From Methylococcales bacterium (lineage in GTDB: Bacteria > Pseudomonadota > Gammaproteobacteria > Methylococcales > Methylomonadaceae), in the NCBI GenBank assembly GCA_026399075.1, contig JAPLRR010000084.1, positions 62,001-126,000 on the forward strand: DNA of 64,000 nt, in the 5' to 3' direction. Below the pieces are notes generated by a model. It did no database searches, was not told the DNA's origin, and saw only the letters and a list, made by a program, of their open reading frames with translations. The position numbers were made by a program, and so were the translations under genes. Shown piece after piece: positions 42,584-64,000 of this stretch; the stretch's first letter is position 1, and every line of letters begins with the position of its first letter.

Positions 42584-45500
42584 ATGGCGGTTCCAACAAA
42601 AATTCAACATCCTCTGCTCCGGCTTCCCGGGACGAGCCAGCGTAAACGTATTGCCGGGTCTCAATTGCTGCGTCCGGATCTCGCTCCGATTGATGGCCGC
42701 AAGCTGGGAGACATGCTGGATTTCGTCTACGAGTACGCGCGCCTGGTCGTTTTTCACGAGTACAAGATCGATGCCGCAGGGCAGAAATACGTCGAGCTCA
42801 GCAATTGGTTGGGTTTTTTCGAGAATAGCTTGCCCTATGCCTTGAACCAATTCGCCAAGTCGGATTTTGATCGACTCCAGACCGAACTACAGAGTACCAT
42901 CGAAGCAATTGAGCAGAAGCCGAATGACGCTAGCCTATTTTTGCTCCTGGATTTCTGTTACTTCGATCTAATTCAGCCGTTGGTCCGGTTGCAACAAACT
43001 GCGCGCAAATTCGATTTCGAACCACTGGTTACGCTTCTAGACCGAACTACTCGAACCTCATTGCTGCCACACCTGCGCCGTTTTATTGAACTCAGCAACG
43101 TCGCTGCCAAGTATTTCTGTAAGACCAAATATGATTTCATGGTCTTCGCCCAGGCACCCTGGGATATTCCCATCGAAGATCTGTTCGTGATCGACGAAAC
43201 AGTCGAGGACGTTCCGGGAGGACAAGCTGGCGCGATCAAGTGGCTGGGTGTTCAACTGGCTGATGTCGCGCAGCGTTTTATAGTGGTGCAGCGGAATATT
43301 GCACAGGAGATACCAAGTTTCCTTGAGGAGAGTATCGATGTCCTTAAGAAGCGGAACGATCCTCATCTGGGTCTTCTCTATGTATTCCTGCGTCTGTTCG
43401 AGCACTTTCAGAGTGAACTCAACGGGTTGACACAAAAACACATCGAGTTCTTTTATAGCGAAGTCCTGCAATTGAAGGGCAGAGACATGTTGCCCGACCA
43501 GGTCCATCTACTATTCGAACCCGCCAAACACTTAGATAGTAGCCATCGTATCAAGCAAGGCACAGTCTTCAAGGACGCCAAGGACAGCAAGAATGTTGAC
43601 ATCCTTTTCGATCTCGACGAGGAAATTGTCATCGACAAGGCAAAGGTTGTGGCGTTGCAGACGTTGTACCTGAATCATAATCAAGGTTGTCTCGAAGGGA
43701 ATGTTAGTAATAACATGCCCAGCGCGTTTGTGGAAGGGGTCTACATCGCCCCGGTCGCCAATTCCGCCGACGGAAAAGGCGGAGAGTTCAAAGAGGAGCA
43801 GAGCAAGAACTGGGCAACTCTGGGCGCCAAGCTGAGCAAATACACCGCGCCGGGCGAGATCGTTCGGCAAAACCACCCCTTCGGTAGGATCGGGTTCATC
43901 CTTGCGTCCCCGGTTTTGTGGCTAAACGAAGGACAAAGAGAAGTCACCATCACCATTGAGTGCGACGCAAGCAAGAACGAAGATTGGTACAACGCCTGTT
44001 TCAAACAGGAGCTCGGGGAATTCAGCGAGACCAAAATTTACAAGATAACCGATAAGACGATTCAGAATGTAGAGGCGCTTTTTTCTATACAAGCGCGAGG
44101 GTTCCTGCATGAGGAATTCACTAAAAGGTCACCACTACAATTATTTACAGAAGAGGAATGGACTGCTTTCTTGGAACAACCGAATACACACTTCACAAAG
44201 CATGAAAGGGATATCCTAGCTGACTTATTGAAGAAGACCGATGCTGGTGTTTATATTCTGGAAATGTTGTCGTCTACGTTACTTAAGAAGCTTTCTGAGT
44301 CAGCGCAAGTGTTTCTGCAAGAGGAATTCGCTAAGAGTAGTTTGCCGTTACAGTTCTCTACTGAAACAGAGTGGACTAACTTCCTGCAACAGCCCAAGAC
44401 ACGCTTCACAAAGCAGGAACAGCAACTTCTGGCTAATTTAGTGCAGAAGACCAATGGTGGTGTTTATGTTCTGGGAAAATTGCCGCCTGAGTCGCTTGTG
44501 AAGTTTTCTGAGCCAGCGCAGACGTTTCTGCAAAAAAAATTCGCTAAGAATTCGCCGTTACAGTTCTCTACTGAAACAGACTGGACTAACTTCCTGCAAC
44601 AAATCGAAAAACGTTTCACAATTCAGGAACAGGAACTTGTGGCTGATTTAGTACAGAAGGTCGATGGTGGTGTTTATGTTTTGAAAGAGGTGCCGTTTAA
44701 GTCCCTCTTGCAGCAACTCAGGCTCCAAAAGGACCGGAAGTTCATTGGCTCTGCTGCACTATCTCATTTCTTTCAAACGACAAGTTGCTCTAGCGGTGGA
44801 TCCTTAGTTCCGGATACTTTGCACGAAATGATTCAAGGTTTCTTTAATGAGGAACCTAATAAAATCGTGTTGGATCGCTCGGAATACTTTACTGTCCATT
44901 TCAGTGGTGAGAAGGGGTGGTTCCAAGTAAGTAATAAAACAGACGGACAAAGGGTGTTTCTCATTGCCGCATCCGGATTATCCGACAAAACATTCACTCT
45001 TCGTTTTGAAGCAAAGCTAAGTGTAGAAGATCCCAAAGTTGCGTTCTACAGTGAAAAAACGATTGGAGAAACATTCGAAACAGAATTCGCTTTTCCGATG
45101 GTGCGGATCGAATTGAAATCGGAGATCCAATTCCCCTGCAATAATTTCGATATAACGTCAGGCTGTTGCCTGGAGACAAAGAACAAGCCCAACACCTTGC
45201 CCATTGGACTTTATTATCTCTTAAGATTCTTGACGATCGTGAAAACCGACATTGACGTAAAGGTCGGCGGACTCAAGAACCTGGTGGTACAAAACGAAGA
45301 AAGCCTGCAAGACGTCAATAGTGTGGTTCTACCGTTTGGCTCACGACCCAAACTGAAGGCAGACTTTTTAATCGGATCAAAAGAACTGCTGTGCAAAGAC
45401 TGGAAGCGGTTTCAGATAGGGATTGAGTGGAAAGGCAAACCAGACAGTCTGGCGGAACACTATACGGACTATGGTAAAAAGTTAAAGTTGGAGATCGAAC

Positions 45501-48322
45501 CACCTAGGGACCGCGATAATAAGATTACAGATGACCTGTTTGAGATCGAACCGGCGATTATGCAAAGTGGCGGATGGACTGACCACGACCGCTTCAAGCT
45601 GTTTACCAACGGACCTGACGCGAACAATCGGTTTACCTATCCATTTGAAAGAAAGGCGACATACGAGTTTAAGACATTTGATTCGGCTCCCTTAGAACCA
45701 TTTACGGTAAATACCCGTGATGCGTTTCTTCGTTGGAGGCTTAGAGGCGCCAGTTTTCAACATGCAGTCTATCCGTTTGCACTCGCAACCTATTTGCTGG
45801 AATTCACCAAACAAATACCCAGTGGATTTACTGTACCCACGCTCATCAAACGTATCGATGAAGCCTCTGTCCTCGTGGAATTAATATGCGGCAAAGTTGT
45901 GCATGTCAAGAAAGACACATTAGATAGTTTGAAGAAGGCGCTGAAAAATATTCAGACAAATATCTCCAATATTTTGACGACCGCGATAACACAGGTACAA
46001 GATCATCTCACTGAAGCAGATAAAAAACTAACTAAAGTGCCGCTGAGTGTATCAGGAACCCGTGATGAAATTACACAAGCTATGGAGCTTATTAATAGGG
46101 GAGTCAGGCAGGCTTTGGTGGATTTAGAAGGTGTGCTTGGCACTATCCTGACAACGAATATTGTAGGGATTGAGACCGAACTTGGAGAGATCAAAACCCA
46201 TCTTGAAAGCGGTGATGAATTACAGGTGGAACTACTAACTAATGAAGTGGAAAAAATTGAGGACAAGGTAAAAAGTTTGAAGACATCACTTGAAACGATG
46301 CAGACGAATTTATCTAGTATTTTAACTACCGAGTTAACGCAGGTAAGTACTCATCTAGCTACAGCAGAAAAAATATTAAATGATTTACTCGAGGGAATAG
46401 AAATTAGTTTGGATGATCAGTTTAACGCCATTCTAAAAACGAATATAGCAGAGATTGAGACTGAACTTGGAGTTATCGAGACCGATCTTGGAAGAGATGG
46501 CGCTTTACAGAAAAAGCTAAAAGAATTAAAAGATTCATTAGACTTTGATGTGAAATTACCTAACGAGCCATACACTCCGCAAGTAAAGTCGATATGCATT
46601 GATTATGTAGCCTCCGCGAAAACAGAGGACATTGAGTTCATCCATCTTTATCCCTTCGCCAAAACCTCCAAAACCGAGACATTGTTTATTGTTGAAACAT
46701 TACAAAAATATCAACTCAGTTTAAGGTCAATTTCAGTGCCTAGTGACCTTCCAGATCAAGGCGAGTCTCTTATCATCGTCGCACTGGACAATGCCAAGCT
46801 TCTTCATATAAGGATCTTCGATGACAAGGGACAAAGAATTGTAGACAAGGTAGAAGCTGAGCTGAATAAGGGGCAGAAGTTGACCGAGCTTAAGAAATTT
46901 CTTCAGCCGTTCCCTGACCAATCAACTTTGACTGAGGACAAGAAGCCGGAAATCATCGATAAAGCGATATCAATCTCAATCTCCCAAACCACCCTGCTAC
47001 CCACTTTCACAGACGAGGGAACTCTTTTTATCGGTTTGGAGGGATTGCGTCCCCGTTCGAATCTTCAACTCTTATTCCAGTTCGCTGAAGCGACGGCAGA
47101 TTCAGAAACTGGTCGTGCCTGTATCAAGTGGAACTACTTGGCGAAAAACCAATGGAAAGAACTGCGTACCGGCTTTGAACTGTTGTCGGATAAGACCGAG
47201 CAAATGACCCGCTCCGGCATCGTCAAGATTGCCCTGCCCGAAGATATCTCGAACGAGGGCAATACCCTGATGCCACCGACCAAGGAGGGTCAGCACCTCT
47301 TCTGGCTGAAAGTTTCTACCCCGAGCGCCGTGGTGGGTGTTGCCGAGCTACTGGGTGTGCATGCCCAGGCCGCTTTGGCGACCTACAAACCCTTGGCTGG
47401 AAGCGATCTGGATCGCGTTGCCAAAACTGTGGAGCCGGAGCAGATTGGCAAGACTTTGGAGCCGGACTTCGGCATCAAGAAGATACAACAGCCCTACAAG
47501 TCGTTTGGGGGCAGTGTGGCGGAGGCCAAGGGAACAATCCCCATCCGCATGAGCGAGCTCCTGCGGCACAAAGGGCGCAGCGTGGATGCGTTCGATATCG
47601 AGCACTTAGTCCTGGATGCCTTTCCAGAGTTGTTCAAGTGCAAATGCATCAGTCATACGATGGGGCTCTCGGCAAGGCAATACCAGCGTGACCTCGAGGT
47701 GGCACCCGGCTTTCTCATCGTCGCGGTAGTACCTGACCTGACAAAACTGGAACCGGGCGATATGTTGCAGCCCATGGCGCCGGTGAGCACGCTGACGAAG
47801 GTTAAAAAATTCCTGATGACGCGGGTCTCGCCATTCGCGCGTATTCGTGTGATGAACCCAAGATACGAGAAAGTCCATCTGAGAGTGGAGGTTCAGCTCA
47901 GGCGAGGCCGGGACAAAAACTACTATTTATCCCAATTAAAGACAGACCTGTGCCACTTTCTGGCTCCTTGGCATCTGGGTGATTCGGATAAGCTTTCGTT
48001 TGGTCAGCACCTAGTCTTCTCGGATGTGCTGGGTTTTATCGAGGGGTTGGAGTACATCGATTTTGTCACCGATTTGAGGATGTTCAATTTCAAATTGAAG
48101 AATTCAAAAGAGATCGTCCCCTTGACCGCACGTTCGATACTCAGCCCAGGGGATATCAAAACTTTTTCCTATGAGAAGGATTACAAGGAAAAATCCGCAT
48201 CTCAGCCCGATGAAAACAAGCTGGCTGCGTTTCTAAAGAGCGCATCACCGATTACCTGTGGGGAAGCGCAATCCGACCTGAGCAAGGAAACTACAACCGA
48301 TTCCGATGAAGATGCGAGATGA
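42584..48322 (+). CDS. Giant eCIS baseplate protein (Afp11-like, baseplate J family)
   Basis: 1912 residues; typical Afp11-type proteins are shorter. The N-terminal part (to about 500) has helical and beta baseplate sequence (MLDFVYEYARLVVFHEYKID). Residues about 507-715 contain three tandem 70-71-residue repeats (FLxEEFxK-SPLQFSTExxWTxFLQQ). Residues about 1115-1320 hold two similar coiled-coil units. At about 1393-1468 a ~75-residue module with LLHIRIFDDKG appears that recurs twice in the next protein. The C-terminal third is a gp47/J-like wedge (FGGSVAEAKGTIPIRMSELL, MSPFARIRVMNPRYEKVHLR-type). It forms the wedge ring; its stop overlaps the next start by 4 nt. Confidence 0.88.
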   Translation: MAVPTKIQHPLLRLPGTSQRKRIAGSQLLRPDLAPIDGRKLGDMLDFVYEYARLVVFHEYKIDAAGQKYVELSNWLGFFENSLPYALNQFAKSDFDRLQTELQSTIEAIEQKPNDASLFLLLDFCYFDLIQPLVRLQQTARKFDFEPLVTLLDRTTRTSLLPHLRRFIELSNVAAKYFCKTKYDFMVFAQAPWDIPIEDLFVIDETVEDVPGGQAGAIKWLGVQLADVAQRFIVVQRNIAQEIPSFLEESIDVLKKRNDPHLGLLYVFLRLFEHFQSELNGLTQKHIEFFYSEVLQLKGRDMLPDQVHLLFEPAKHLDSSHRIKQGTVFKDAKDSKNVDILFDLDEEIVIDKAKVVALQTLYLNHNQGCLEGNVSNNMPSAFVEGVYIAPVANSADGKGGEFKEEQSKNWATLGAKLSKYTAPGEIVRQNHPFGRIGFILASPVLWLNEGQREVTITIECDASKNEDWYNACFKQELGEFSETKIYKITDKTIQNVEALFSIQARGFLHEEFTKRSPLQLFTEEEWTAFLEQPNTHFTKHERDILADLLKKTDAGVYILEMLSSTLLKKLSESAQVFLQEEFAKSSLPLQFSTETEWTNFLQQPKTRFTKQEQQLLANLVQKTNGGVYVLGKLPPESLVKFSEPAQTFLQKKFAKNSPLQFSTETDWTNFLQQIEKRFTIQEQELVADLVQKVDGGVYVLKEVPFKSLLQQLRLQKDRKFIGSAALSHFFQTTSCSSGGSLVPDTLHEMIQGFFNEEPNKIVLDRSEYFTVHFSGEKGWFQVSNKTDGQRVFLIAASGLSDKTFTLRFEAKLSVEDPKVAFYSEKTIGETFETEFAFPMVRIELKSEIQFPCNNFDITSGCCLETKNKPNTLPIGLYYLLRFLTIVKTDIDVKVGGLKNLVVQNEESLQDVNSVVLPFGSRPKLKADFLIGSKELLCKDWKRFQIGIEWKGKPDSLAEHYTDYGKKLKLEIEPPRDRDNKITDDLFEIEPAIMQSGGWTDHDRFKLFTNGPDANNRFTYPFERKATYEFKTFDSAPLEPFTVNTRDAFLRWRLRGASFQHAVYPFALATYLLEFTKQIPSGFTVPTLIKRIDEASVLVELICGKVVHVKKDTLDSLKKALKNIQTNISNILTTAITQVQDHLTEADKKLTKVPLSVSGTRDEITQAMELINRGVRQALVDLEGVLGTILTTNIVGIETELGEIKTHLESGDELQVELLTNEVEKIEDKVKSLKTSLETMQTNLSSILTTELTQVSTHLATAEKILNDLLEGIEISLDDQFNAILKTNIAEIETELGVIETDLGRDGALQKKLKELKDSLDFDVKLPNEPYTPQVKSICIDYVASAKTEDIEFIHLYPFAKTSKTETLFIVETLQKYQLSLRSISVPSDLPDQGESLIIVALDNAKLLHIRIFDDKGQRIVDKVEAELNKGQKLTELKKFLQPFPDQSTLTEDKKPEIIDKAISISISQTTLLPTFTDEGTLFIGLEGLRPRSNLQLLFQFAEATADSETGRACIKWNYLAKNQWKELRTGFELLSDKTEQMTRSGIVKIALPEDISNEGNTLMPPTKEGQHLFWLKVSTPSAVVGVAELLGVHAQAALATYKPLAGSDLDRVAKTVEPEQIGKTLEPDFGIKKIQQPYKSFGGSVAEAKGTIPIRMSELLRHKGRSVDAFDIEHLVLDAFPELFKCKCISHTMGLSARQYQRDLEVAPGFLIVAVVPDLTKLEPGDMLQPMAPVSTLTKVKKFLMTRVSPFARIRVMNPRYEKVHLRVEVQLRRGRDKNYYLSQLKTDLCHFLAPWHLGDSDKLSFGQHLVFSDVLGFIEGLEYIDFVTDLRMFNFKLKNSKEIVPLTARSILSPGDIKTFSYEKDYKEKSASQPDENKLAAFLKSASPITCGEAQSDLSKETTTDSDEDAR
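44099..44735 (+). repeat. Triplicated 70-residue repeat inside the Afp11-like protein
   Basis: Three tandem copies begin at the Phe codons at 44102, 44312 and 44525 (periods 210 and 213 bp). Each encodes FLxExFxK, EW or DW then FLxQ, FT..E..LLAxLxxK, GGVYVL. The second and third copies are very similar at DNA level (CAGTTCTCTACTGAAACAGA in both), indicating recent duplication. Confidence 0.85.
46762..46989 (+). repeat. Mobile ~75-residue module, copy 1
   Basis: Encodes SLIIVALDNAKLLHIRIFDD, IVDKVEAELNKGQKLTELKK and a tail ending EIIDKAISISIS. Shares the order IVA-LHIRIFD-VDK-EL-LPD-S-L-EIID with copies in the next gene at about 53589 and 54904. Confidence 0.75.
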
Positions 48323-51300
48323 CAAGAGAAATTGAAAAAAAGATCGACGTCATCGCGCAGAACGATCCATTTTCTGCGCAACGTCCCCATTTTGACTTTC
48401 AGGCACTACGCCGAGAAGGATTGAAGCATATTGGAGATCTGTCGGGGAAGATATGGACCGACCACAACGCCCATGATCCAGGCGTCACCATTCTCGAAGA
48501 ACTGTGTTATGCGTTGATTGATCTCGGATATCGCACCACGTTACCGATGCAGGATCTGCTTGCGCAACCTCGGGACGATTCTCCAAAACCAACGGAAGAT
48601 GATAGTCCGCGCCACGAGAACTTCTTCACGCCACTCGAGATACTCAGTTGTAACCCTACGACCGTCCTCGACTTCCGCAAACTACTGCTCGATATCGACG
48701 GTGTCCGCAATGCTTGGTTGGAGCCTGCCGAGAGCGATGCTCCTCTGTATCTTTACCTATCAGAACATCTTGAAAACCCCAAACCACAATGTTGTTCTGC
48801 TGACGAATCCAAGACTCGCCCCAACCAGGTCGCCCTCAATGGACTCTACAACGTCTTAATCCAGAAAGAGATCAACTTTGATGAAGAGAAACTATTCAAA
48901 TCGGTCAAGGAGATGCTCTCCGCGCACCGAAACCTTTGTGAGGATTTTAGTGCGATCAGAATCCTGCAATCGCTCGAAGTCGGTATCTGCGCCGATGTAG
49001 ATCTCGAAGATACGGCCGATGCCGCCACAGTGTATGAGGCTATCATCAGGGCCGTAAAAGGGTATATATCACCTGAGATAGTTTATTACACCCTTAGGGA
49101 GTTGCTGGACAAAGGGAGAGCGATCGAAGATATCTTCGCAGGTCGGCCTAAGTTAGGATCGCGTAGTGCCGGATTTGTCGATACCGAAGAGTTGGAGGCA
49201 CTGCCTTTTCGGGATAAGCTACAGGGATCGGACCTTTACGCTGCCATACTGGCTGTGAAAGGCGTCCTCGCGGTGCGGAATCTCTCCTTCCACACAGATG
49301 GCACCATTGAAGGTAAGACAATTCAGCGCGTCGTTGTGTCCTCAGGGTCTGCCGCGGTGTTCTCACTGGAACGGACATGCATCAACCTGCAAGCCTCTCA
49401 GGGGATGTTGTTCCTAAACAAGGAGAGGATACACCGTCGATTGCAGGAAAGTGGCAAGCCGAGGCGTGGTCTTGAACACCTTGATCTGCCGATTCCCGAA
49501 GGACGGTACCGCAAGGGGTTGGCTGATTATTACTCGATCCAGCACGATTTCCCGCTCGTCTATGGGATTGGCAAGGGGGGGCTTCCAAACGAAGCGACAC
49601 CCTTGCGGAAAGTGCAGGCCATGCAGCTCAAGGGGTATTTGCTGTTCTACGATCAGCTGCTTGCCAATTACTTAGCCCAAATTGGCAATCTTCGCCACTT
49701 GTTTTCGCTCCAGGTTGAATCAAAACGCCCGGGCGCGGAAAGACACACTTACTTCAGCCAGGACCTCGAGAGTGTACCGGATTTGGAACGGCTCTTTCCA
49801 AGACATCCGGGAAAGGCCTTATCCGATGGGAGCATCTTGGCGATACCGGTGGCCAATGATGCAAGGATGGCGAAGCGACTGGAAGAGTTGAGGGCTTATC
49901 CCCTTACCGAGTTGCTGATTACCGACAGCTGTAAATGCACGCCCGAAGAAATACCTCACTTTTCGGATGTCAATAAATCCCTACGCGAAATCCGCATTCG
50001 CCAATCGATCCGCGAATTCCATCTGGGTGACTATTCCCTTGAACTCTCCCGAGACCGCAACGGCTATTTATTCATCCTCCGCATCAAGCAGAGCTGTGCG
50101 CTGCTGTTGGTCAGTTACCAGCGCTACAAAAATCAAGATGAGGCGCGCGAAGCCGCCAACTTTGCTGCGTTTCTGGCGAGCCGACCTGAATATTACGCCA
50201 GGCGATTACAACAGATCAATCTGAACGGTAGTCAGATCGAATACCAATTCAATCTGGTTTTCGATCCGGCGGCTTATAGCGCTTACCTACAGTTTCTGTT
50301 CGAGAACGAGGCCTTGTATCTGCAACGGAGAGAGGCTTTCCTAGATCATCTGCTCGCCCGGTTTGCTACCCAATTCACCGACTATGCCTTGCTGCGTTTT
50401 AGTGCCGAGGTGGAAGATACATCAGAAAGTCGTCAGACCGTCGAAGACAAGTCGCGGTTTCTTAGCCGAATTGACGATCTGAGCCGCGACCGGGGTCGCG
50501 CCTACGACTATTTGCAATCTGCCTGGGGTACCGAAAACGTTTCCGGTTTCGAAAAACGGGTCTCTCTGCTTGCCGGCATGAAGGACTATAGCAGACGCCA
50601 CCTGTGTAAGTACGAGGTCGTCGAACGGTTTCGGATGGAAATCGAAGATCCGAATGGTATTCCCTGGTTTTCGAGTATAGACACCTACCCATCAAGAGAT
50701 AAGCTTGCTGAGGCAAAAAGGAATTTGCTGGAACAGTTGAGGGATCCAAAGAGCTACCAAGGATTGCAGCGCCGGACCCGAGATTTCAATCCCATATCGG
50801 TAGGTCGAATTTTTTCCTGTGTTGCCACTGATGAAAATATCGTGGTTTCGAGATATGTTTATGCCTTGATCCTCAAAGGCAGTAATGGCGATGAATTGAG
50901 GGAAAGCAGTAAAAATGACTATGCAACGCAACCCCTGGCTTGGCGAGGAATATCCAAGTTCATCAAGGAGATCGAAAATGATAGTGGGCTGAAGTTGGTG
51001 AAGACGGGACCGAAGCGTCTGCTCTTTATCGATAACCGTCAAATACAATGTCACGTTGACCCCATCATTACCTACAAGTGGTATCGCTACGATTTGCAGG
51101 GTGAACCTATCGCTACAGCAAGTGCACCATATCCCAGCCCCACTGCTGCTATTCAAGATTTTGCCCACAGTGCAGATTTTGGCGATCTCATTGTTTCTAA
51201 GCTAGATGCCGCAATATGGAGTCTCAGTATTGGTGAGGAATACCCCCCATTGGTGAGTATCCACGCTTTTGACAACGAACTGGAGGCGAAACGTGCCTGG

Positions 51301-54300
51301 CTGCGCGCTAAGAGCGATGGTCAACTCAGGACACGATACCAGCAGAATACCGAACCGGGAAGGCTAGGGACTCGAATTACCTTGACGACCGAAGGCAGCA
51401 TAGTAATCGCTAGCGCCATGATTTCGCAGCAGGATTCCCTAAGCATCGACGAGTACATTGCACATTGTCAGGCCGAATTCGGGCGGGATACGGAAAAACT
51501 CAAGTTTTCCACGCTGCCCACTGCTTACGGTTGGCGTCTGGCAAAGCAAGGTGAAAATGCATTGGCCGGGGATGACGTAACCATGGAGGGCGCCTTATTC
51601 TTCCGGGACGTTCCAGGAGCGATTTTTGGTCTGTTGGATGCCCTAGTGGCTGTGAAGGATGCAAAGAATTACTTTGCAGCGGGAAGCGAAGACAACCCGG
51701 ACTATCGTATCCTTCTCAGATCGTCAGGAGGGCCCTTTATCGCGACCACCCCGAGCTATGCCAATGCCAAGGAACGTAATAAGAATCTCAAACTCGTTCA
51801 GGATCGATTGATGCGGCTGCACCCACCTCTGGAGGTAAGAGAGGAGCCCCGGCTATACAGTTGGAAACTATGCCATACGACCGATGAACAAGTAGTTTTG
51901 GAATCAAGTAAGGAGAAGGTTTTCGGTTCCGAAGCGGCCGCGAAGACCGATTTCGAAATTTTCATCCAGCGTATACACCAAGAGCAACCGGCTTCTCCTG
52001 TGGGGCAACAGGTCTATGCCATTGATTTGAAGAAAATCGAGGACAAGTACCGCTTCGTTTACTGTCAGAATGGCCCCAATGGCGAGGCGCTTCCGTTGTT
52101 ACGTAGCGCTGAAGAGTATGATGGCAAAGAAGTCAGAGGAAAATACGAAGAATTTGTTAAAGCCATGGCACAAATGCAGTGGAAGAAGGGTTCGCTTGTT
52201 GGTAAAGATGTTCCCACTGCTGTGCTCGACTATGACTCTAAAGAGAATCGTGCCAGCGTTGATCGCATTCTGGCATACAGGATGCCAAACAACGTTAGCC
52301 GGGAGAATAGCGTTAAGCCGAAATGGATCTATCGTCTGTTGGATCGGGACAATCCAATCGCCAAGTCTAAAAAATCCTATCCAACGAGAGAAGACGCAGA
52401 GAAGGAGAAGAATGGGATCTGTGGCTACAAGCCTTGCCGTGAGTATGAGCCGTGTCCAAAGAAGGACATCGTCAGGGTCATCTGTCCAGCGTTGGATCCT
52501 GGTAAGTATCACTATGCTCTATTTCTCGGTACCAAGGATAAGAACGAAGTTGAGTGTGCAACGTTGATTTCTTATATGGGCTACACAAGCGAGGATGCAG
52601 CGAGGAAAGCCGGTGAAGAAAACTGGCTAGCGTTGATCGAACGAGCAGAGGATAAGGGGAATTACGGCGACGACAATATTATCGCCGTGAAGGAGGCCTA
52701 TGCCGAAAGCACGGGCTCGGAATGTGACAAGGCTGGAATACATCGGGCGGTAAAACCTGAGGGAGTCAAAACTGAAGACGCTGTTACTCGCGCGAAATGC
52801 TACCCCATTCGTATTACCTACAAGAAAGATGACAAGGGCAATCCGACTTTACAAGTGCTCGGGTTCCATTTCCAAGGATACGACGAGAAAACCGATACCA
52901 GTTTGTGGCGGAGTACTATCGATTACAAGGATGTGGATCAAGCCCTTGTAGCTTACCAGCTTTTCTTGACTGTATTGGGTAATATTGAAAGTTGTCGCAT
53001 TGAGTGTGATGAGGGCTGCTACCGCATCCACTTGGTGGAGATACTTGCCGAAAGTAAAGATTTTGAAACGGAGGCTGAAGCCTGGGGCGACATGCCAAAG
53101 GTTACGGAGAATGAATGTGGCAGGAGCTCTTGTCCCGCACAAGGGGTTCGTCTGTTTGACCAGACAGCGACTTCTGAAACCGCGTTCGTTCCGGTCCTCC
53201 TCCTCCTTGATGGTGATTATTACCGTTTTGAGGTCGTGGCTAAAGAATATGTTTTGGCTAAACATAGCTGTGAATACCCATCACGAAAGGAACGTGATGA
53301 GGCGATAAAAGGGCTTTGTCAATGGGCAAAGGATGGGAGGTTCGATTTTTCATATTTACCAGACCCCAAGATAGAAAATCTTATTCGCCAAAACGGGTTT
53401 CTTCAGTTTAACCTGGGCAAGGGTTACTTTCTGCGAAGTTTTAAAGCTTTACCCAATCTCCAGGAGTCCGATGCTCAGAAGATCGTAGACGACTGGCTTT
53501 GGTTGGCGTCTTCCAGCCGAAACTATAGGTGGCACGGGTATGACCTCGGTTTGATGTTGGCTGATGCGACGTGCGGACTTTTAGATGAGGGAAAAAATTT
53601 AGTCATAGTTGCCCTCGTCAGCAACAACCTACATATCCGTATCTTCGACTCGAAAGGAGAGAAAGTAGTCGATAAAGCGGAACACGAGTTGGTTAGTGGG
53701 GCTCCACTAGAGGAGCTAAAGAAGTGCTTAAAACCATTACCCGATCAGTCCAAGTTGCCCCTGAAAAACAAACGAGAAATTATCGACATGACAATATCGA
53801 TTGCAGATTACATCCGGGGGGAGAAGGAATATACAAATAAGTGGTATCTGGTGAACCCACTCGAGAGCAACTCGGAGATCGCAACGATTGAGCACGAGAA
53901 CGACTCGGTCGATATCGAAGCATTCAATGAGTTAGTGCGAGCGTATCCGGTGTACAAGAAAAACGACGGATACCGTTTTCGGCTCTACTACCCAGAGAAC
54001 GGCTCGCGTTTGGATGACGAACTAAGGATTTGCGGTTGCCACGACGCTGACGACGGAAAACAGCAGGCTTTGCAGTCCTTTTGCGACCAAGTCTATATCT
54101 ACGAGAGCACAGGGAGCTACCCCTGTCGCGCCGCAGCGGAAAATGCCTTCAAGCGTTTTCTCGACCTGCTTGCTGAATTTGATAACTACAAAGACGAAGA
54201 AGAGACGGGGCTCGGTACTTTTTCATTCTCTATCATCGATCGTGAAAAGGTGCTTGCTTCGCATCCGTATAACCATCCCGATCGCACCAGTGCCATGCGG

Positions 54301-55749
54301 GCTGAGGAGCGCGTTCGAGCCTGTGTTGGAGATGAGGGCATGCACCTGGTCGAGCATATTTTGTTACGTCCGCAGACTGGAGCACACTGCGACCACCTGC
54401 TTCCCGTTTGTACAGAATTCGATAGTTCAAGTCAGTTGTGCACCCTGGAATGGCAGGAAGACCTTGATCCAGACGATCCTTGTTCAGAGGAGAATAACCA
54501 GAAGTTGACATACGTCCCCGGAGCGGACCCCTATTCTTTTTGGGCGACGGTGGTGCTGCCAAGCTGGACCGAGCGCTTCCGTAATAGTGAAAATCGGCAT
54601 TTTTTCCGGCAGATGCTCTACCGCGAGGTACCGGCCATGGTGGCGTTGAATATCATCTGGCTCGGTCCGCGGCAAATGTATGAATTCGAGAAGGCGTTTA
54701 AATCCTGGCTCAGTTCAAGGCACTTTCCGTCCGCCCTTTGTCAAAGCGAGAGTGATCCCTTCTGCTGCATGGTTAATTTTATCGGGAAGTTATGCAGTGA
54801 ACCCCTTTGTCCAGATCCGGATACCATCGCCGCAACCTGTGATTGTATTAACTGTAAGCTCCATTTGATGTCAGTTGCTTCTACGGCTAATATTTTAAAT
54901 AAAGGCCGTAATCTGGTGATCGTCGCCCTTGTAGATACAAAGCTACACATTCGTATTTTTGATGTCAGTGGAAAAAGGGTTATTGATAAGGCAGAGAACG
55001 ATCTAGCGAACGGTAATACTCTGAAGGCTTTCAAGGAGATGTTAAGCTCTTTCTCTGATAAATCACGCCTATCCTATCAACAAAAACAAAATATTATTCA
55101 TAACGCAACATCATTAGCAGGTTACACCCTTAACAACGAGGGGATGGTGCCGGATAACGAGTGCATAGAAACATCGGAAAGCCTGTTTTGGTTACCTTGC
55201 AAATCCGGAGAGATCCCTAAGATTATCGAGTGCGAGGCCACTGACGTAGCCGAGATCACTAACGACAATGAGGTATTTGAGGGCAGCGTATTTATGGTAG
55301 ATGTCGCTGCCATTCGCAGGACAATAACCGAACGTACAGAAGCACTGAACAAATATATTCGTGCCGTTGATTTTGCACCGGTAAGGAGTATGAAAAGCTA
55401 TGATAGGATAAATCATTTCCTGAAAAATCCTGCAACTCTGGATGCTTTCAAGCAGCTACACGCGCAGATGATGCAGGATATCTCGCAAATAGAAACAAGG
55501 GCGGGTAAGCTACTTACGAACGTTTATCAAATTGCCTTCTGGTACCTCCTCGATCATCTGGTGCAAGAACATCCGTATGAGATTCAATCTGTAGTCAAGG
55601 AAGCGTTGCCCCAGTTGCTGCATGAGATGGAGGCAAAGGGACTGGTGTTGGATGAACTTGCAAAGGGCTGGATGGGAGAGGTCTTTGGTGAGTTATTCGG
55701 AGCTACCACTGCCAAAATTGTCAACGAGTATCTGACGCTTATAAAATAA
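48319..55749 (+). CDS. Giant eCIS baseplate protein (Afp12-like) with repeat modules
   Basis: 2476 residues. The N-terminus (KIWTDHNAHDPGVTILEELC, YALIDLGYRTTLPM) is the Afp12/baseplate-J-type wedge start. A conserved part runs to about residue 780 (DFPLVYGIGKGGLPNEATPL, QLKGYLLFYDQLLANYLAQI). From about 915 to 1990 lie at least nine YegP/DUF1508-like beta-beta-alpha units (Y-F-L-d...Y-s-r-ea). The core resumes with MHLVEHILLRPQTGAHCDHL, FWATVVLPSWTERFRNSENR and WLGPRQMYEFEKAF. Two copies of the mobile module sit at about 1757-1833 and 2194-2272. It likely completes the baseplate wedges; the insertions may project outward. Confidence 0.85.
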   Translation: MTREIEKKIDVIAQNDPFSAQRPHFDFQALRREGLKHIGDLSGKIWTDHNAHDPGVTILEELCYALIDLGYRTTLPMQDLLAQPRDDSPKPTEDDSPRHENFFTPLEILSCNPTTVLDFRKLLLDIDGVRNAWLEPAESDAPLYLYLSEHLENPKPQCCSADESKTRPNQVALNGLYNVLIQKEINFDEEKLFKSVKEMLSAHRNLCEDFSAIRILQSLEVGICADVDLEDTADAATVYEAIIRAVKGYISPEIVYYTLRELLDKGRAIEDIFAGRPKLGSRSAGFVDTEELEALPFRDKLQGSDLYAAILAVKGVLAVRNLSFHTDGTIEGKTIQRVVVSSGSAAVFSLERTCINLQASQGMLFLNKERIHRRLQESGKPRRGLEHLDLPIPEGRYRKGLADYYSIQHDFPLVYGIGKGGLPNEATPLRKVQAMQLKGYLLFYDQLLANYLAQIGNLRHLFSLQVESKRPGAERHTYFSQDLESVPDLERLFPRHPGKALSDGSILAIPVANDARMAKRLEELRAYPLTELLITDSCKCTPEEIPHFSDVNKSLREIRIRQSIREFHLGDYSLELSRDRNGYLFILRIKQSCALLLVSYQRYKNQDEAREAANFAAFLASRPEYYARRLQQINLNGSQIEYQFNLVFDPAAYSAYLQFLFENEALYLQRREAFLDHLLARFATQFTDYALLRFSAEVEDTSESRQTVEDKSRFLSRIDDLSRDRGRAYDYLQSAWGTENVSGFEKRVSLLAGMKDYSRRHLCKYEVVERFRMEIEDPNGIPWFSSIDTYPSRDKLAEAKRNLLEQLRDPKSYQGLQRRTRDFNPISVGRIFSCVATDENIVVSRYVYALILKGSNGDELRESSKNDYATQPLAWRGISKFIKEIENDSGLKLVKTGPKRLLFIDNRQIQCHVDPIITYKWYRYDLQGEPIATASAPYPSPTAAIQDFAHSADFGDLIVSKLDAAIWSLSIGEEYPPLVSIHAFDNELEAKRAWLRAKSDGQLRTRYQQNTEPGRLGTRITLTTEGSIVIASAMISQQDSLSIDEYIAHCQAEFGRDTEKLKFSTLPTAYGWRLAKQGENALAGDDVTMEGALFFRDVPGAIFGLLDALVAVKDAKNYFAAGSEDNPDYRILLRSSGGPFIATTPSYANAKERNKNLKLVQDRLMRLHPPLEVREEPRLYSWKLCHTTDEQVVLESSKEKVFGSEAAAKTDFEIFIQRIHQEQPASPVGQQVYAIDLKKIEDKYRFVYCQNGPNGEALPLLRSAEEYDGKEVRGKYEEFVKAMAQMQWKKGSLVGKDVPTAVLDYDSKENRASVDRILAYRMPNNVSRENSVKPKWIYRLLDRDNPIAKSKKSYPTREDAEKEKNGICGYKPCREYEPCPKKDIVRVICPALDPGKYHYALFLGTKDKNEVECATLISYMGYTSEDAARKAGEENWLALIERAEDKGNYGDDNIIAVKEAYAESTGSECDKAGIHRAVKPEGVKTEDAVTRAKCYPIRITYKKDDKGNPTLQVLGFHFQGYDEKTDTSLWRSTIDYKDVDQALVAYQLFLTVLGNIESCRIECDEGCYRIHLVEILAESKDFETEAEAWGDMPKVTENECGRSSCPAQGVRLFDQTATSETAFVPVLLLLDGDYYRFEVVAKEYVLAKHSCEYPSRKERDEAIKGLCQWAKDGRFDFSYLPDPKIENLIRQNGFLQFNLGKGYFLRSFKALPNLQESDAQKIVDDWLWLASSSRNYRWHGYDLGLMLADATCGLLDEGKNLVIVALVSNNLHIRIFDSKGEKVVDKAEHELVSGAPLEELKKCLKPLPDQSKLPLKNKREIIDMTISIADYIRGEKEYTNKWYLVNPLESNSEIATIEHENDSVDIEAFNELVRAYPVYKKNDGYRFRLYYPENGSRLDDELRICGCHDADDGKQQALQSFCDQVYIYESTGSYPCRAAAENAFKRFLDLLAEFDNYKDEEETGLGTFSFSIIDREKVLASHPYNHPDRTSAMRAEERVRACVGDEGMHLVEHILLRPQTGAHCDHLLPVCTEFDSSSQLCTLEWQEDLDPDDPCSEENNQKLTYVPGADPYSFWATVVLPSWTERFRNSENRHFFRQMLYREVPAMVALNIIWLGPRQMYEFEKAFKSWLSSRHFPSALCQSESDPFCCMVNFIGKLCSEPLCPDPDTIAATCDCINCKLHLMSVASTANILNKGRNLVIVALVDTKLHIRIFDVSGKRVIDKAENDLANGNTLKAFKEMLSSFSDKSRLSYQQKQNIIHNATSLAGYTLNNEGMVPDNECIETSESLFWLPCKSGEIPKIIECEATDVAEITNDNEVFEGSVFMVDVAAIRRTITERTEALNKYIRAVDFAPVRSMKSYDRINHFLKNPATLDAFKQLHAQMMQDISQIETRAGKLLTNVYQIAFWYLLDHLVQEHPYEIQSVVKEALPQLLHEMEAKGLVLDELAKGWMGEVFGELFGATTAKIVNEYLTLIK
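51075..54330 (+). repeat. Array of YegP/DUF1508-like units in the Afp12-like protein
   Basis: Diverged units start near 51075, 51211, 51530, 51705, 51858, 52324, 52509, 53215, 53970 and 54221. Each begins with a Y/W-x-hydrophobic strand, then a short strand with ILA or VLES-like residues, then Y/F-x-S/T-R/x-EDA or similar and a helix. They are far more diverged than the 70-residue repeats of the preceding gene. Confidence 0.55.
53583..53815 (+). repeat. Mobile ~75-residue module, copy 2
   Basis: Encodes KNLVIVALVSNNLHIRIFDS, KVVDKAEHELVSGAPLEELK and a tail REIIDMTISIADY. Closest in order and spacing to the copies at 46762 and 54898. Confidence 0.8.
54898..55131 (+). repeat. Mobile ~75-residue module, copy 3
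   Basis: Encodes RNLVIVALVDTKLHIRIFDV, RVIDKAENDLANGNTLKAFK and a tail NIIHNATSLAGYTL. It interrupts the C-terminal part of the Afp12-like protein. Confidence 0.8.
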
Positions 55750-55758
55750 GGCTAAGTC

Positions 55759-57582
55759 ATGGAAAACCGCCACCTCATTGCGAAACAGGTGTTCGAACTA
55801 AGAGTCGGTTTGGATGCGGGGCATATTTCACAACTCCAGGAATCTTTTAGCAGGCAATATTGGCAATCGGTCGTTCCTGCCTTCGAACATCTGTTTGATC
55901 GGCTGGTTGCCCCGGATCAACTGGTGCGTGTTGACCGACTTGAGCTTGAAGTGGGGCGCTGGTCGGCTGAGGATATTTTTTCTGGCCGGTTTACCGAAAA
56001 CCTAGTGTCGCACCTTGAAGCCGAGATTTCAAGGGCCTTGCGGGGCACGGGGATCAAGGCCGATATGCAGCCGCTTCGCACATGCCGCTTCAATAACTGG
56101 TTGTATTTTCTGGAACATGGTTACCTGCCAGTGGACGTGGCCCAACCCGATTCGCTGCCGGAGTGGCAACAACAGGTTTTTGAGACTTTAGTCTCCGAGA
56201 GCAGTGCATTGCAACGTTTTCGCATGCTTGTGTATAGGCGTCCGGTCGTGCTAGAACGGTTGATTCTCCAGCACGACCAGGAATTTTTAAAGCAGCTCCT
56301 TGAGTTCTTGACCAACCGCACACAGAATGATTTACGGAGGCTGGTTGACGATGTCGTCGGTGAGGTTGTTCGAGCCGCTACCGAATTGTCGGATCATATC
56401 CACGCAGTTGGCAAAATAACCCCGTCAAAATCCGAAAGCATTGCCGCTGCGCTGTTCAATATTTTGGCAGATCTGTTGAATCTCCAACCGGACAGTCAAC
56501 ATGCAGCCGAGTTGAAGAGACGCATCACACTGGCCTTGGAAAAGGAGGCTTCGAATCCCCAGACATTGGCGCAATGGCTAATTCAGGCAGATTCCTGGAG
56601 GATGCTGCTCAGTGGTTTAGCGCGGCCTGAGATATCCAGCAACATCAGTGACCGAATCAGCAAAGCGCTTGGAGAAACCGCTGGCCTGCGGAGTCTTGTG
56701 GCAGAATTCAGCACTGGACCGACCTTCCCGACGCGAGATCTGCTGCGTCGAGTTGAACTGGCTGTCTGGCGGATTCTCATCCACGAAGTCGTCATCAACA
56801 GGCAGCAAAGTAATACTTCCACGCTGATGGCCAGAGTTATCCGTTCCGATGCCTTGTTGCCATGGCGGGGAATGCTTATGAGAAGGCTCGATGCAACAAG
56901 GGATATGAAAGGACGCGATGAGGCTTGGACGCGGGTGATACAGGCCATTGAGGCGCTTACGCATTCGTCTCTGAACGTTACTGGCAGTCAAGATAATCCT
57001 ATAGAGGTGCTTGCCAAGCGAGAAATGCCTGCAGCAGAAGAAACGGAGAAACAAAACATCTCCGATGCAAAAGAAGCCGATCTATACTACGTTAATTCGG
57101 CGGGTATCATTCTGTTTCATCCTTTTCTTCAGCGGTTCTTTCAAAACTTGGGCTTATGTAAGGATGGCGTATTTATCGATGAAACCAGCCGCCAGCGGGC
57201 AGTCTGCCTGGTGCATCACTTAGCAACGGGTGAGGTGCACACCCCCGAATATCAGCTGGTATTGCCCAAGTTCCTCTGCGGGATGCCTTTGAATGCACCT
57301 ATCGATCACTTTATTGAAATTGATGCGGCAGAGCAGTCCGAGAGTGAAAACTTAATTCTCGCCGCTGTTAAACATTGGGACGCGCTAGGCAAGGTTTCGC
57401 CTGATTGGTTGCGGGAGATGTTCTTACGGCGAGATGGCAAATTGGAGAGGGGTGAAACTGGGTGGCAGCTTTCAGTGGAACGCAAGGCCCAAGACATTCT
57501 ACTTGACCGGTTGCCCCATGGCTGGGGGCTGGGCATCGTGAAACTGCCATGGATGAATGATTTACTGCGCATCGAATGGTGA
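55759..57582 (+). CDS. eCIS tape-measure-type protein (CIS_TMP family)
   Basis: 607 residues of the family annotated as contractile injection system tape measure protein (Afp14/Pvc14 position). The N-terminus HLIAKQVFELRVGLDAGHIS and the C-terminal LYYVNSAGIILFHPFLQRFF, LVHHLATGEVHTPEYQLVLP and GWQLSVERKAQDILLDRLPH are diagnostic. Helical throughout. It should help set tube length or nucleate assembly. Confidence 0.9.
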   Translation: MENRHLIAKQVFELRVGLDAGHISQLQESFSRQYWQSVVPAFEHLFDRLVAPDQLVRVDRLELEVGRWSAEDIFSGRFTENLVSHLEAEISRALRGTGIKADMQPLRTCRFNNWLYFLEHGYLPVDVAQPDSLPEWQQQVFETLVSESSALQRFRMLVYRRPVVLERLILQHDQEFLKQLLEFLTNRTQNDLRRLVDDVVGEVVRAATELSDHIHAVGKITPSKSESIAAALFNILADLLNLQPDSQHAAELKRRITLALEKEASNPQTLAQWLIQADSWRMLLSGLARPEISSNISDRISKALGETAGLRSLVAEFSTGPTFPTRDLLRRVELAVWRILIHEVVINRQQSNTSTLMARVIRSDALLPWRGMLMRRLDATRDMKGRDEAWTRVIQAIEALTHSSLNVTGSQDNPIEVLAKREMPAAEETEKQNISDAKEADLYYVNSAGIILFHPFLQRFFQNLGLCKDGVFIDETSRQRAVCLVHHLATGEVHTPEYQLVLPKFLCGMPLNAPIDHFIEIDAAEQSESENLILAAVKHWDALGKVSPDWLREMFLRRDGKLERGETGWQLSVERKAQDILLDRLPHGWGLGIVKLPWMNDLLRIEW

Positions 57583-58309: not shown

Positions 58310-58816
58310 TTATTCCAACGGGGCTAACGGCGCCTTTCTCTCCGTGCGGAGGTCCAAATGACTCTGCCCGAGATCGTCACGCATCGCCAGCGTAAGTTTT
58401 CGAAATAGTACCGCCGAGTGCGGACTGTCGAGCCCATGCGACGCGATGCTATCCCGCAGTTTGCCAAAGCCCTCTATTACCGCCCGACTGCCAAGCAGCG
58501 CAAGACCCTGCTCAATTCTCGACCGCATCGCCGGCGACATGTCCTGCTGCTGCAATGCCCCAAGCGCCAATTGGTATAAGCGGTAACGCTGCACCAGAAG
58601 ACCCTGCTGAGCCAACTCCCTGAATCCAGAACGGATGGCACCCGACAGGAACAGCACAACGAAGATCGTCAAAACACCTATTAGGGTGGCGCGAGGCTGC
58701 TCTGTCGGTGCCAAGAGGGCGTATTGCGCGACAACCCAGACCACGCTGTGGTAGCCGGCATAGCCAAGCAGGATCAGGATAAGAAGGGTGAGCAAAGTGC
58801 GCATGAGTACAATCAT
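58310..58816 (-). CDS. Two-helix membrane protein paired with the DUF4157 gene
   Basis: 168 residues. Two membrane segments (LLTLLILILLGYAGYHSVVW, residues 6-30; LIGVLTIFVVLFLSGAI, about 44-60) are followed by a cytoplasmic helical domain (LYQLALGALQQQDMSPAMRS). No recognised family. Its ATG overlaps the DUF4157 stop by 4 nt, so translation is coupled. Position fits an immunity protein or loading partner of the large protein, which is inference only. Confidence 0.7.
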   Translation of the reverse strand: MIVLMRTLLTLLILILLGYAGYHSVVWVVAQYALLAPTEQPRATLIGVLTIFVVLFLSGAIRSGFRELAQQGLLVQRYRLYQLALGALQQQDMSPAMRSRIEQGLALLGSRAVIEGFGKLRDSIASHGLDSPHSAVLFRKLTLAMRDDLGQSHLDLRTERKAPLAPLE

Positions 58817-63354: not shown

Positions 63355-64000
63355 TGCGTCAGGTCCAATAATTACATGTAGGCTCAAGCAGCCTGGGCAG
63401 GCAAATGACACTGATTGCCCGGTGGATATGTCGTTCGAGTTCAGGCAACCGGAAAGGTTGCAAGTGCATGATGCAGGTGTTACCAACGGAGGTGTACTTG
63501 CACTTACGTATCCCCGTGGCGGAAGTTGGCACTCCAATGCAGAGCTTGGCCTCTGCTACAACCGTGATGCTGGTTGAAATCTTGGTGTGAATGGCTGGGA
63601 TAGTCATTGATCTACATTTTACCTTCGTCATGCTCAATTTTGGCCCTGTCAATAGTCGCGGCATATCTCGTCTACCGCATTTCTATTCGATTTGAGTACG
63701 GTGTTTTAGGTCCGGTGGTGGAATGACTGTCTATCAAGTGCAAAGTGCCCGAAGATGCTGAATCGAGATCTGCTTCAGAATTATCTACGGATAGCAAGTA
63801 CTTTTTTGTGGTCGATTCCGATGTTTCTGCATTCTTAGAGTGCCAAGCCTAAAAATCCGGTTGTAACGTTTCCTCGTCCTATGTCCTATGTAGTTGGTTA
63901 TCGTATTATCAAAACTTTTCTATATTTTGTTTCAAATATGTTAGCATATCAACCACCTAAAGGGTATATTTTGGTGGTAAATAAACAGCGAATCCGTCAG
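63355..64000. other. Region upstream of the DUF4157 gene
   Basis: 646 bp to the window edge. The frame of the DUF4157 gene stays open to about 63540 but does not look like protein-coding continuation with a good start. No other gene, repeat or clear promoter box is supported here. Confidence 0.45.

Follow-up and report, generated by a model that had tools for sequence, protein, structure and literature searches.

A probable MITE-like transposable element, coding end to end, in two injection-system proteins of a Methylococcales bacterium

Introduction

How does one stretch of protein come to stand three times in two neighboring genes? The question is raised by a 64,000-nucleotide stretch of DNA from a Methylococcales bacterium (GenBank assembly GCA_026399075.1, contig JAPLRR010000084.1, positions 62,001 to 126,000), referred to in full as the window. 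The window encodes an extracellular contractile injection system (eCIS), a phage-tail-like injection machine. Two of its baseplate-region proteins, host protein 1 (p1) and host protein 2 (p2), share a module present in three copies, named m1 to m3 (Table 1). Our analysis indicates that the module is most probably a non-autonomous transposable element of ~280 bp that resembles a miniature inverted-repeat transposable element (MITE) and codes from end to end. The transposable-element part of this reading is based on inverted repeats, a target duplication of fixed length, conservation at silent sites that is strongest at the ends, and unrelated host proteins. Its protein-domain character is based on purifying selection and a stop-free frame.

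A 90-Residue Module in Three Copies

With copies from outside the window as a guide, the module comprises 90 residues, from Tyr-x-Leu-x-Leu-Met-Ser-Val to Ser-Ile-Ala-Gly, and the aligned DNA element is 280 bp in each of m1, m2, and m3. The original prediction, made from the letters of the window, had described a module of ~75 residues; the module is real, but that extent was short at both ends. In the 4.08-Mb genome, a model built from the three copies matches only those three places (E values of 1e-40 to 8e-43), as expected from the claim of one module, three copies, and two proteins. Residue identity is 52% between m1 and m2, 40% between m1 and m3, and 45% between m2 and m3; L006, a copy from another genus, is 57% identical to m3 and 55% identical to m2. 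The position of the module relative to the protein cores differs between p1 and p2 and also within p2, again as predicted.

Unrelated Host Proteins in Other Genomes

Twenty distinct copies were found in 11 genomes. The window genome holds three, G335 two (locus L008), G1085 two (L050, L052), and G337 six; single copies occur in G333 (L006), G334 (L007), G336 (L009), G580 (L028), G436 (L029), and G1017 (L051), and a partial copy occurs in G233 (L012). The copies are both multiple and dispersed in G337, where the six lie on six contigs; those of the window genome lie within 8.4 kb, and the other genomes have one or two. They are present in many independent assemblies, one of them on a 5.06-Mb contig. 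Two restrictive peptide patterns searched across the genomes of 84,980 species matched 88 stretches, five of which encode the module. In whole-genome samples, which may overlap and whose counts include genomes already known, the module was found in 1 of 61 relatives (the genome itself), 2 of 274 genomes in the class, 3 of 288 in the phylum of G337, and 1 of 299, 4 of 300, 1 of 361, and 1 of 41 genomes in further samples. The module is therefore rare and patchy, yet it spans Pseudomonadota to genomes in the phylum of a Verrucomicrobia-labeled bin.

Some copies are incomplete. In G233 (contig C96, locus L087, the same as L012), a near-consensus copy on the minus strand at ~1068-1160 runs for 31 residues and then meets a stop; it may reflect incomplete insertion, or else a join made at a repeat during assembly. 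The contigs of L008 (5204; copy L008b) and L009 (5171) end inside the module, as would happen if several near-identical copies broke the assembly. Translated searches (tblastn) gave no match in plasmids (with the window copy, the consensus, and a related peptide) or in phages (with the window copy), and two more viral scans gave no module. A planctomycete-like version of the peptide may also exist. Two viral-contig candidates were discarded: L015, where a 192-residue frame that lies beside tail-like open reading frames matched briefly by chance, and L034, a spurious, coiled-coil-like match.

All 20 copies start inside a reading frame. Host families were assigned with Pfam and NCBIfam, with the N- and C-terminal flanks of the module scanned separately and the hosts of L029, L050, and L052 left out. 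The two hosts at L008 are a Baseplate_J protein and a Tail_P2_I protein encoded by adjacent baseplate/tail-type genes, and eCIS or phage-tail-type baseplate proteins host 5 of the 20 copies. The other named hosts are a VRP1 protein (L009), a PSCyt-PSD1 protein (L027), a PPDK_N protein (L032), ZnuA (L031), GtrA (L033), and an AAA ATPase (L028). In two cases, the module splits a domain. AAA_21 of L028 matches at 3-23 in the N flank and 220-304 in the C flank, and PSD1 of L027 matches at 3-118 and 164-241, with both flanks contributing. Elsewhere, one flank matches: the C flank for GtrA (L033, from position 26) and TIGR02243 (L008, 327-651), and the N flank for ZnuA (L031, 1-242 of 263). No convincing family was obtained for L006, L030, or the scanned flanks of L051, and none in NCBIfam for L026; a sub-threshold patatin match of the L007 host disappeared when the flanks were scanned apart.

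These data bear out the claim that the module occurs in unrelated bacterial proteins, though sparsely (one to four genomes per sample of 41-361, known ones counted). The contrary pattern, copies confined to one place in homologous baseplate proteins, was not seen.

Conserved Ends and Terminal Inverted Repeats

The repeats and duplications were tabulated for 17 of the 20 copies, nine of gammaproteobacterial type and eight from the Verrucomicrobiota side; the 31-residue copy (L012/L087) and the two copies cut by contig ends (L008b, L009) were left out. The terminal inverted repeats are imperfect, ~23 bp long, and start with GGG. The left repeat is GGGTATGACCTCCGTTTGATGTC, and the right arm, read outwards, is GGGTGTGACCTGCGATTGATGTT; the ends of a mobilizing insertion sequence would correspond to the element end sequence GGGTRTGACCTSCGWTTGATGTY. 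With the boundaries set at GGG...CCC, the two arms of the same copy agree at 13-15 of 23 positions in six of the nine gammaproteobacterial-type copies (m2, m3, L006, L008a, L050, and L052), at 10 in L051, at 9 in L007, and at 3 in m1. A slid control affords a mean of ~6 and maxima of 9-11. When synonymous codons were redrawn with the protein held fixed, the eight copies other than m1 averaged 9.75 of 17 matches versus 6.18 expected (0 of 5000 draws). Across 12 gammaproteobacterial-type copies, synonymous codon agreement at the two ends is 0.62, as compared to 0.35 expected from the middle (column permutation p = 0.00015); the middle codons vary more on average, though some middle columns are conserved.

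Scans with these ends recover the same arrangement. The end pattern, allowed up to 3 mismatches in eight genomes, marks both ends of one element, inverted, in G333, in G000, and twice in G1085. In the 64-kb window, four of the six matches to the 23-nt consensus (up to 7 mismatches) coincide with the ends of m2 and m3. Because both patterns were made from the copies themselves, these scans show arrangement rather than independence. Two longer end-pattern pairs (L057/L083 and L080), considered as an autonomous partner, span genes of an ordinary kind that encode an FAD enzyme, a type II/IV secretion ATPase, and an amidohydrolase; a 2-mismatch end match in G336 (L084) contained no module by eye.

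An 8-bp Target Duplication

Copy L052 is flanked on both sides by an exact 8-bp duplication, AGTTCGAT, just outside the GGG and CCC. At the same register, the 8-bp flanks match at 6 of 8 positions in L006 and L050, 5 in m2, and 4 in L007 and L008a. The same-copy mean for the nine gammaproteobacterial-type copies is 4.11 of 8 versus 2.31 in cross-copy comparisons (p = 0.0027), and a boundary-shift scan of seven copies (without m1 and L007) peaks exactly at the GGG/CCC boundaries. With L052 removed, p is 0.016 against cross-copy flanks and 0.0005 against random registers. Together with the unrelated hosts and the in-frame insertion, this duplication signal supports the earlier suggestion of a coding mobile element.

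Reading Frame, Selection, and Predicted Fold

The element carries no transposase gene, its coding frame being the module itself. It is 280 bp long in 9 of the 17 measured copies, m1, m2, and m3 included, with a range of 271-292 bp; the other lengths differ by whole codons because in-frame copies must. Addition of 280 bp plus an 8-bp duplication gives 288 bp, or 96 codons, and so a copy in the right orientation and phase would leave the host reading frame intact. The coding frame is stop-free in every measured element and is the sole stop-free frame in 14 of the 17; one further antisense frame is open in each of L006, L033, and L029. If insertion were blind to orientation and phase, about one in six insertions within a gene would match the kind seen.

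Purifying selection acts on the module protein. Against a leave-one-out consensus, 11 copies have nonsynonymous distances (dN) of 0.14-0.40 and synonymous distances (dS) of 0.79-3.28, those above 1 being saturated and rough, and dN/dS is ~0.09-0.33, below 1 in each copy. The pairwise median is 0.28 (37 of 55 pairs with finite dS). Conserved R, D, and G residues and hydrophobic positions persist down to 20-30% identity. Each of the 11 copies is nearer to the consensus (0.52-0.80) than, on average, to the other copies (0.43-0.59). The copy tree is star-like, with L009 (0.065; partial) and L006 (0.14) near its hub and no inner branch firmly supported; m1 and m2 pair in it (92/78).

AlphaFold2, applied to nine copies, predicts four strands and two helices, with a pLDDT (predicted local distance difference test) of 83.8 for the best model and 45-60 for the other four. 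No clear fold relative of this model was detected in PDB or BFVD. A profile search of PDB returned two weak partial matches, to the Bcl2 inhibitor 5jsn_B (E 0.00016, profile positions 40-87) and the C-type lectin 3jqh_A (E 0.0006, positions 55-75), which are taken for chance or composition. Two window modules gave no Pfam match at E ≤ 1, and nine modules gave none above the NCBIfam cut-off (best Por_Secre_tail, E 0.011, 15.7 bits versus a cut-off of 23). Rfam had no match at 46000-56000, and RNA folding z-scores are unremarkable (-0.75 for m2 and -1.54 for L006). No description of the module was found in the literature searches made, either by module peptide strings or by topic.

The Host Proteins and Their Homologues

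The eCIS genes are ordered sheath, CIS_tube, hub/spike, gp25, p1, p2, and CIS tape measure, so that the gp25 wedge gene precedes the p1/p2 pair and a contractile-injection tape-measure gene follows it. Homologues of p1 in four same-genus genomes are module-free, with lengths of 1223-1257 aa in three and two separate frames (715 and 520 aa) in the fourth. Homologues of p2, again from four same-genus genomes, are also module-free (1131-1332 aa), and the same-genus loci L046-L049 align without the module. A p2 homologue is present in only 5 of 35 same-genus genomes, its own included. In the sample of 61 relatives, none of the 60 other genomes matches the module.

In p1, the module lies between conserved '...LYPFA' and 'LLP.F...' stretches, where the homologues have a short linker. 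The relatives are ~33-35% identical in the stretch after the insert. The comparison fails to isolate the module because p1 has further extra residues there, other stretches also being absent from the homologues. Clean in-frame insertion, proposed with the original prediction as a check, is thus evident from domains split elsewhere but not from m1, for which no single-insert comparison is available.

Table 1. Host proteins and element copies in the window
Feature	Position	Strand	Remarks
Host protein 1 (p1), 1912 aa	42584..48322	+	eCIS baseplate-region protein; holds m1
Host protein 2 (p2), 2476 aa	48319..55749	+	eCIS baseplate-region protein (by gene order); holds m2 and m3
Element copy m1	46706..46985	+	By alignment; module residues from 46709; terminal inverted repeat (3/23) and target duplication (1/8) not detectable
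Element copy m2	53536..53815	+	280 bp, GGG...TCC; module residues from 53539
m2 left terminal inverted repeat	53536..53558	+	1 mismatch to 23-nt consensus
m2 right terminal inverted repeat	53793..53815	-	6 mismatches to consensus; 13/23 to own left arm
m2 putative decayed 8-bp target duplication, left	53528..53535	+	5/8 match to 53816-53823
m2 putative decayed 8-bp target duplication, right	53816..53823	+	5/8 match to 53528-53535
Element copy m3	54850..55129	+	280 bp; module residues from 54853; target duplication not seen at this register (2/8)
m3 left terminal inverted repeat	54850..54872	+	6 mismatches to consensus
m3 right terminal inverted repeat	55107..55129	-	3 mismatches to consensus; 14/23 to own left arm

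Other features of the locus were also recorded. Upstream of m1, residues 1090-1282 of p1 (window 45851-46430, + strand) form a coiled-coil-like stretch with a sub-threshold apolipoprotein match; it has no counterpart in the same-genus homologues and is one of several causes of the ~650 extra residues of p1. A coding tandem repeat in p1 (window 44225-44680, + strand) has a period of 210 bp (70 aa) and amounts to ~2.2 copies at the DNA level; in the protein, its motif occurs three times, at residues 521, 591, and 661. The repeat is unrelated to the module, lies outside the module copies, and is the only tandem array at 42000-64000 of the window. Host protein 2 is about twice as long as its same-genus homologues, with residues ~822-1938 giving no blastp match to them. 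At 58813-63537 of the window, the minus strand encodes a protein of 1574 aa that contains an eCIS_core domain (PF13699); its gene adjoins the injection-system genes on the opposite strand.

Weighing the Explanations

Under the proposed mechanism, a transposase acting in trans would move the element and generate the 8-bp target duplications. Insertion would add the 96 codons noted above, and in the right orientation and phase it would keep the host frame, so that the host protein would gain an alpha/beta domain of ~90 residues. Copies in other phases or orientations would usually carry stops, truncate the host, and presumably be purged. The constraint on the module protein would stem from its need to fold without damage to the host protein. 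The module can be read as a MITE-like element in which selection has favored harmlessness, or usefulness, on read-through. The window copies are old and are probably now ordinary parts of two eCIS proteins.

Several observations weigh against a transposable element. The eight Verrucomicrobiota-side copies have no inverted repeat (arms of 3-8 of 23), as is also the case for m1, and no duplication signal (1.88 of 8 versus 2.09 cross-copy). Target duplication at the chosen register is absent from m3 (2 of 8), L051 (1 of 8), and m1 (1 of 8), and the register was chosen by eye on L052 before the test. The short flanking duplications that the original prediction had asked for are accordingly exact in L052 and incomplete in L006, L050, and m2, but missing from m1 and m3 at that register. 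When the consensus is tested by itself, the inverted repeat gives P = 0.0036, the more cautious figure because the copies share ancestry. The end pattern is weakly specific, with 114 matches in eight genomes versus 69 for the reversed control (up to 3 mismatches), and no transposase or autonomous partner was found with it in these genomes (30 loci kept). None of the genomes compared is a close relative with the exact empty site, the p1 relatives being as distant as stated above. Intergenic DNA yielded no copy, unusually for an ordinary MITE, and copy numbers are low, at 1-6 per genome. Finally, copies from the same genome cluster in the tree (4 changes versus 6.5 when shuffled, a value as low in 1 of 200). 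This clustering weighs against independent arrivals; spread within genomes would also give it.

Some of these observations would suit an ordinary protein domain of ancient origin that gene duplication and recombination would have spread and that would serve secreted and injection-system proteins in binding or as a scaffold. Such a domain would be under purifying selection, all its copies would be found in reading frames, and its R, D, G, and hydrophobic positions would persist at low identity, as observed. The bare ends of the Verrucomicrobiota-side copies, the five baseplate-type hosts, and the same-genome clustering also fit. We nevertheless consider this origin unlikely, given the inverted repeats, the 8-bp duplications, the synonymous conservation that is strongest at the ends, and hosts that share nothing, one of them interrupted shortly after a Walker A motif. 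A further account is compatible with the transposable element and adds to it a gained function: the module would have been delivered by a transposon long ago and kept as a functional domain, for example as a particle-surface patch in the eCIS baseplate. Retention of three copies in two adjacent eCIS genes and of two in the adjacent baseplate/tail-type genes of L008 is consistent with such domestication, as is dN/dS below 1 in each of the 11 copies. The gained function is a proposal based on this retention and dN/dS. Against it, proteins of the GtrA, ZnuA, and ATPase types hold copies as well, a p2 homologue is missing from most same-genus genomes, and the homologues found are module-free. Domestication is thus a genuine possibility, though we lean against it.

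Splicing at the protein or RNA level would remove the insert from the product, as with an intein, a group II intron, or a byp element, and would be in keeping with a stop-free insert in conserved domains. No Cys/Ser/Asn splice-junction pattern was seen when the aligned ends were inspected. The absence of an Rfam match over the region, the RNA folding scores, and the constraint at the protein level also oppose splicing, and 90 residues would be small for an intein. On the junction pattern, the Rfam result, and the protein-level constraint, intein and group II intron were rejected, and splicing in any form is very improbable. Duplication inside the two proteins of the window, or an artifact of assembly, would account for three copies within 8.4 kb and for the pairing of m1 with m2. 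The window copies are, however, about as close to copies from other genera, such as L006, as to each other, and copies in many independent assemblies contradict this explanation, which was rejected and whose probability is close to nil.

The preferred reading of a MITE-like coding element can be extended. In a 'domain transposon', the selected unit would be a folded domain, the transposon ends would be its first and last codons, and length plus duplication would make whole codons; the unit would disperse across bacterial phyla inside unrelated coding sequences, tolerated because it folds by itself. We see the chances of this extension as evenly divided. If it is true, bacteria possess a mobile module comparable to an exon, and some nested domains are transposition fossils. 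A larger, non-hairpin element that codes for a conserved domain, has relatives in distant bacteria, and still displays legible inverted repeats and target duplications would give a direct mechanism for domain insertion in the middle of proteins. The near-consensus copies offer material for testing it, in a family that is absent from the Pfam and NCBIfam scans and hidden in injection-system and other large proteins.

Comparison with Known Systems

Inverted repeats inside protein genes are also known from nematomorph mitochondria, where the account of coding palindromes names no dispersed homologous element (PMC6649704). Palindromic amphipathic repeat coding elements (PARCEL) are, like the module, coding repeats that are patchy across clades and suspected of horizontal spread. 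PARCEL are 25-residue motifs in tandem arrays (PMC2996958), whereas the module is one unit of 90 residues that is inserted singly and has terminal repeats and target duplications; it does not belong among them.

The likeness to bacterial MITEs is closer. Bacterial MITEs, such as the Coxiella elements QMITE1/2, are likewise non-autonomous, with sizes of 100-400 bp and terminal inverted repeats, according to two reports (PMC5896051, PMC10969869). The module element shares with MITEs a short size without a transposase gene, terminal inverted repeats and a target duplication of fixed length, here 8 bp (both in gammaproteobacterial-type copies), and multiple dispersed copies. According to the same reports, target repeats are 2-3 bp for QMITE1 or TA in bacterial MITEs, and these elements integrate mostly between genes, although some overlap open reading frames or form in-frame fusions (PMC5896051, PMC10969869). 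All 20 module copies, in contrast, start inside a reading frame, and the module differs further in its single stop-free frame (14 of 17 copies) and its purifying selection.

Mobile elements that code in frame are known best from Rickettsia (PMC10969869), and the Rickettsia palindromic elements (RPE) are the nearest analogue. Like an RPE, the module is inserted in frame in unrelated protein genes and carries a conserved peptide. Set beside RPE by description, which gives ~150 bp and an origin in Rickettsia (PMC10969869), the module element is longer, at 280 bp. It has no hairpin along its length, the two copies folded (m2 and L006) not being hairpins and only the ends being inverted repeats. 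It also differs from RPE in coding for a predicted alpha/beta domain of ~90 residues (the best model cited above) and in occurring in Gammaproteobacteria and Verrucomicrobia-labeled genomes.

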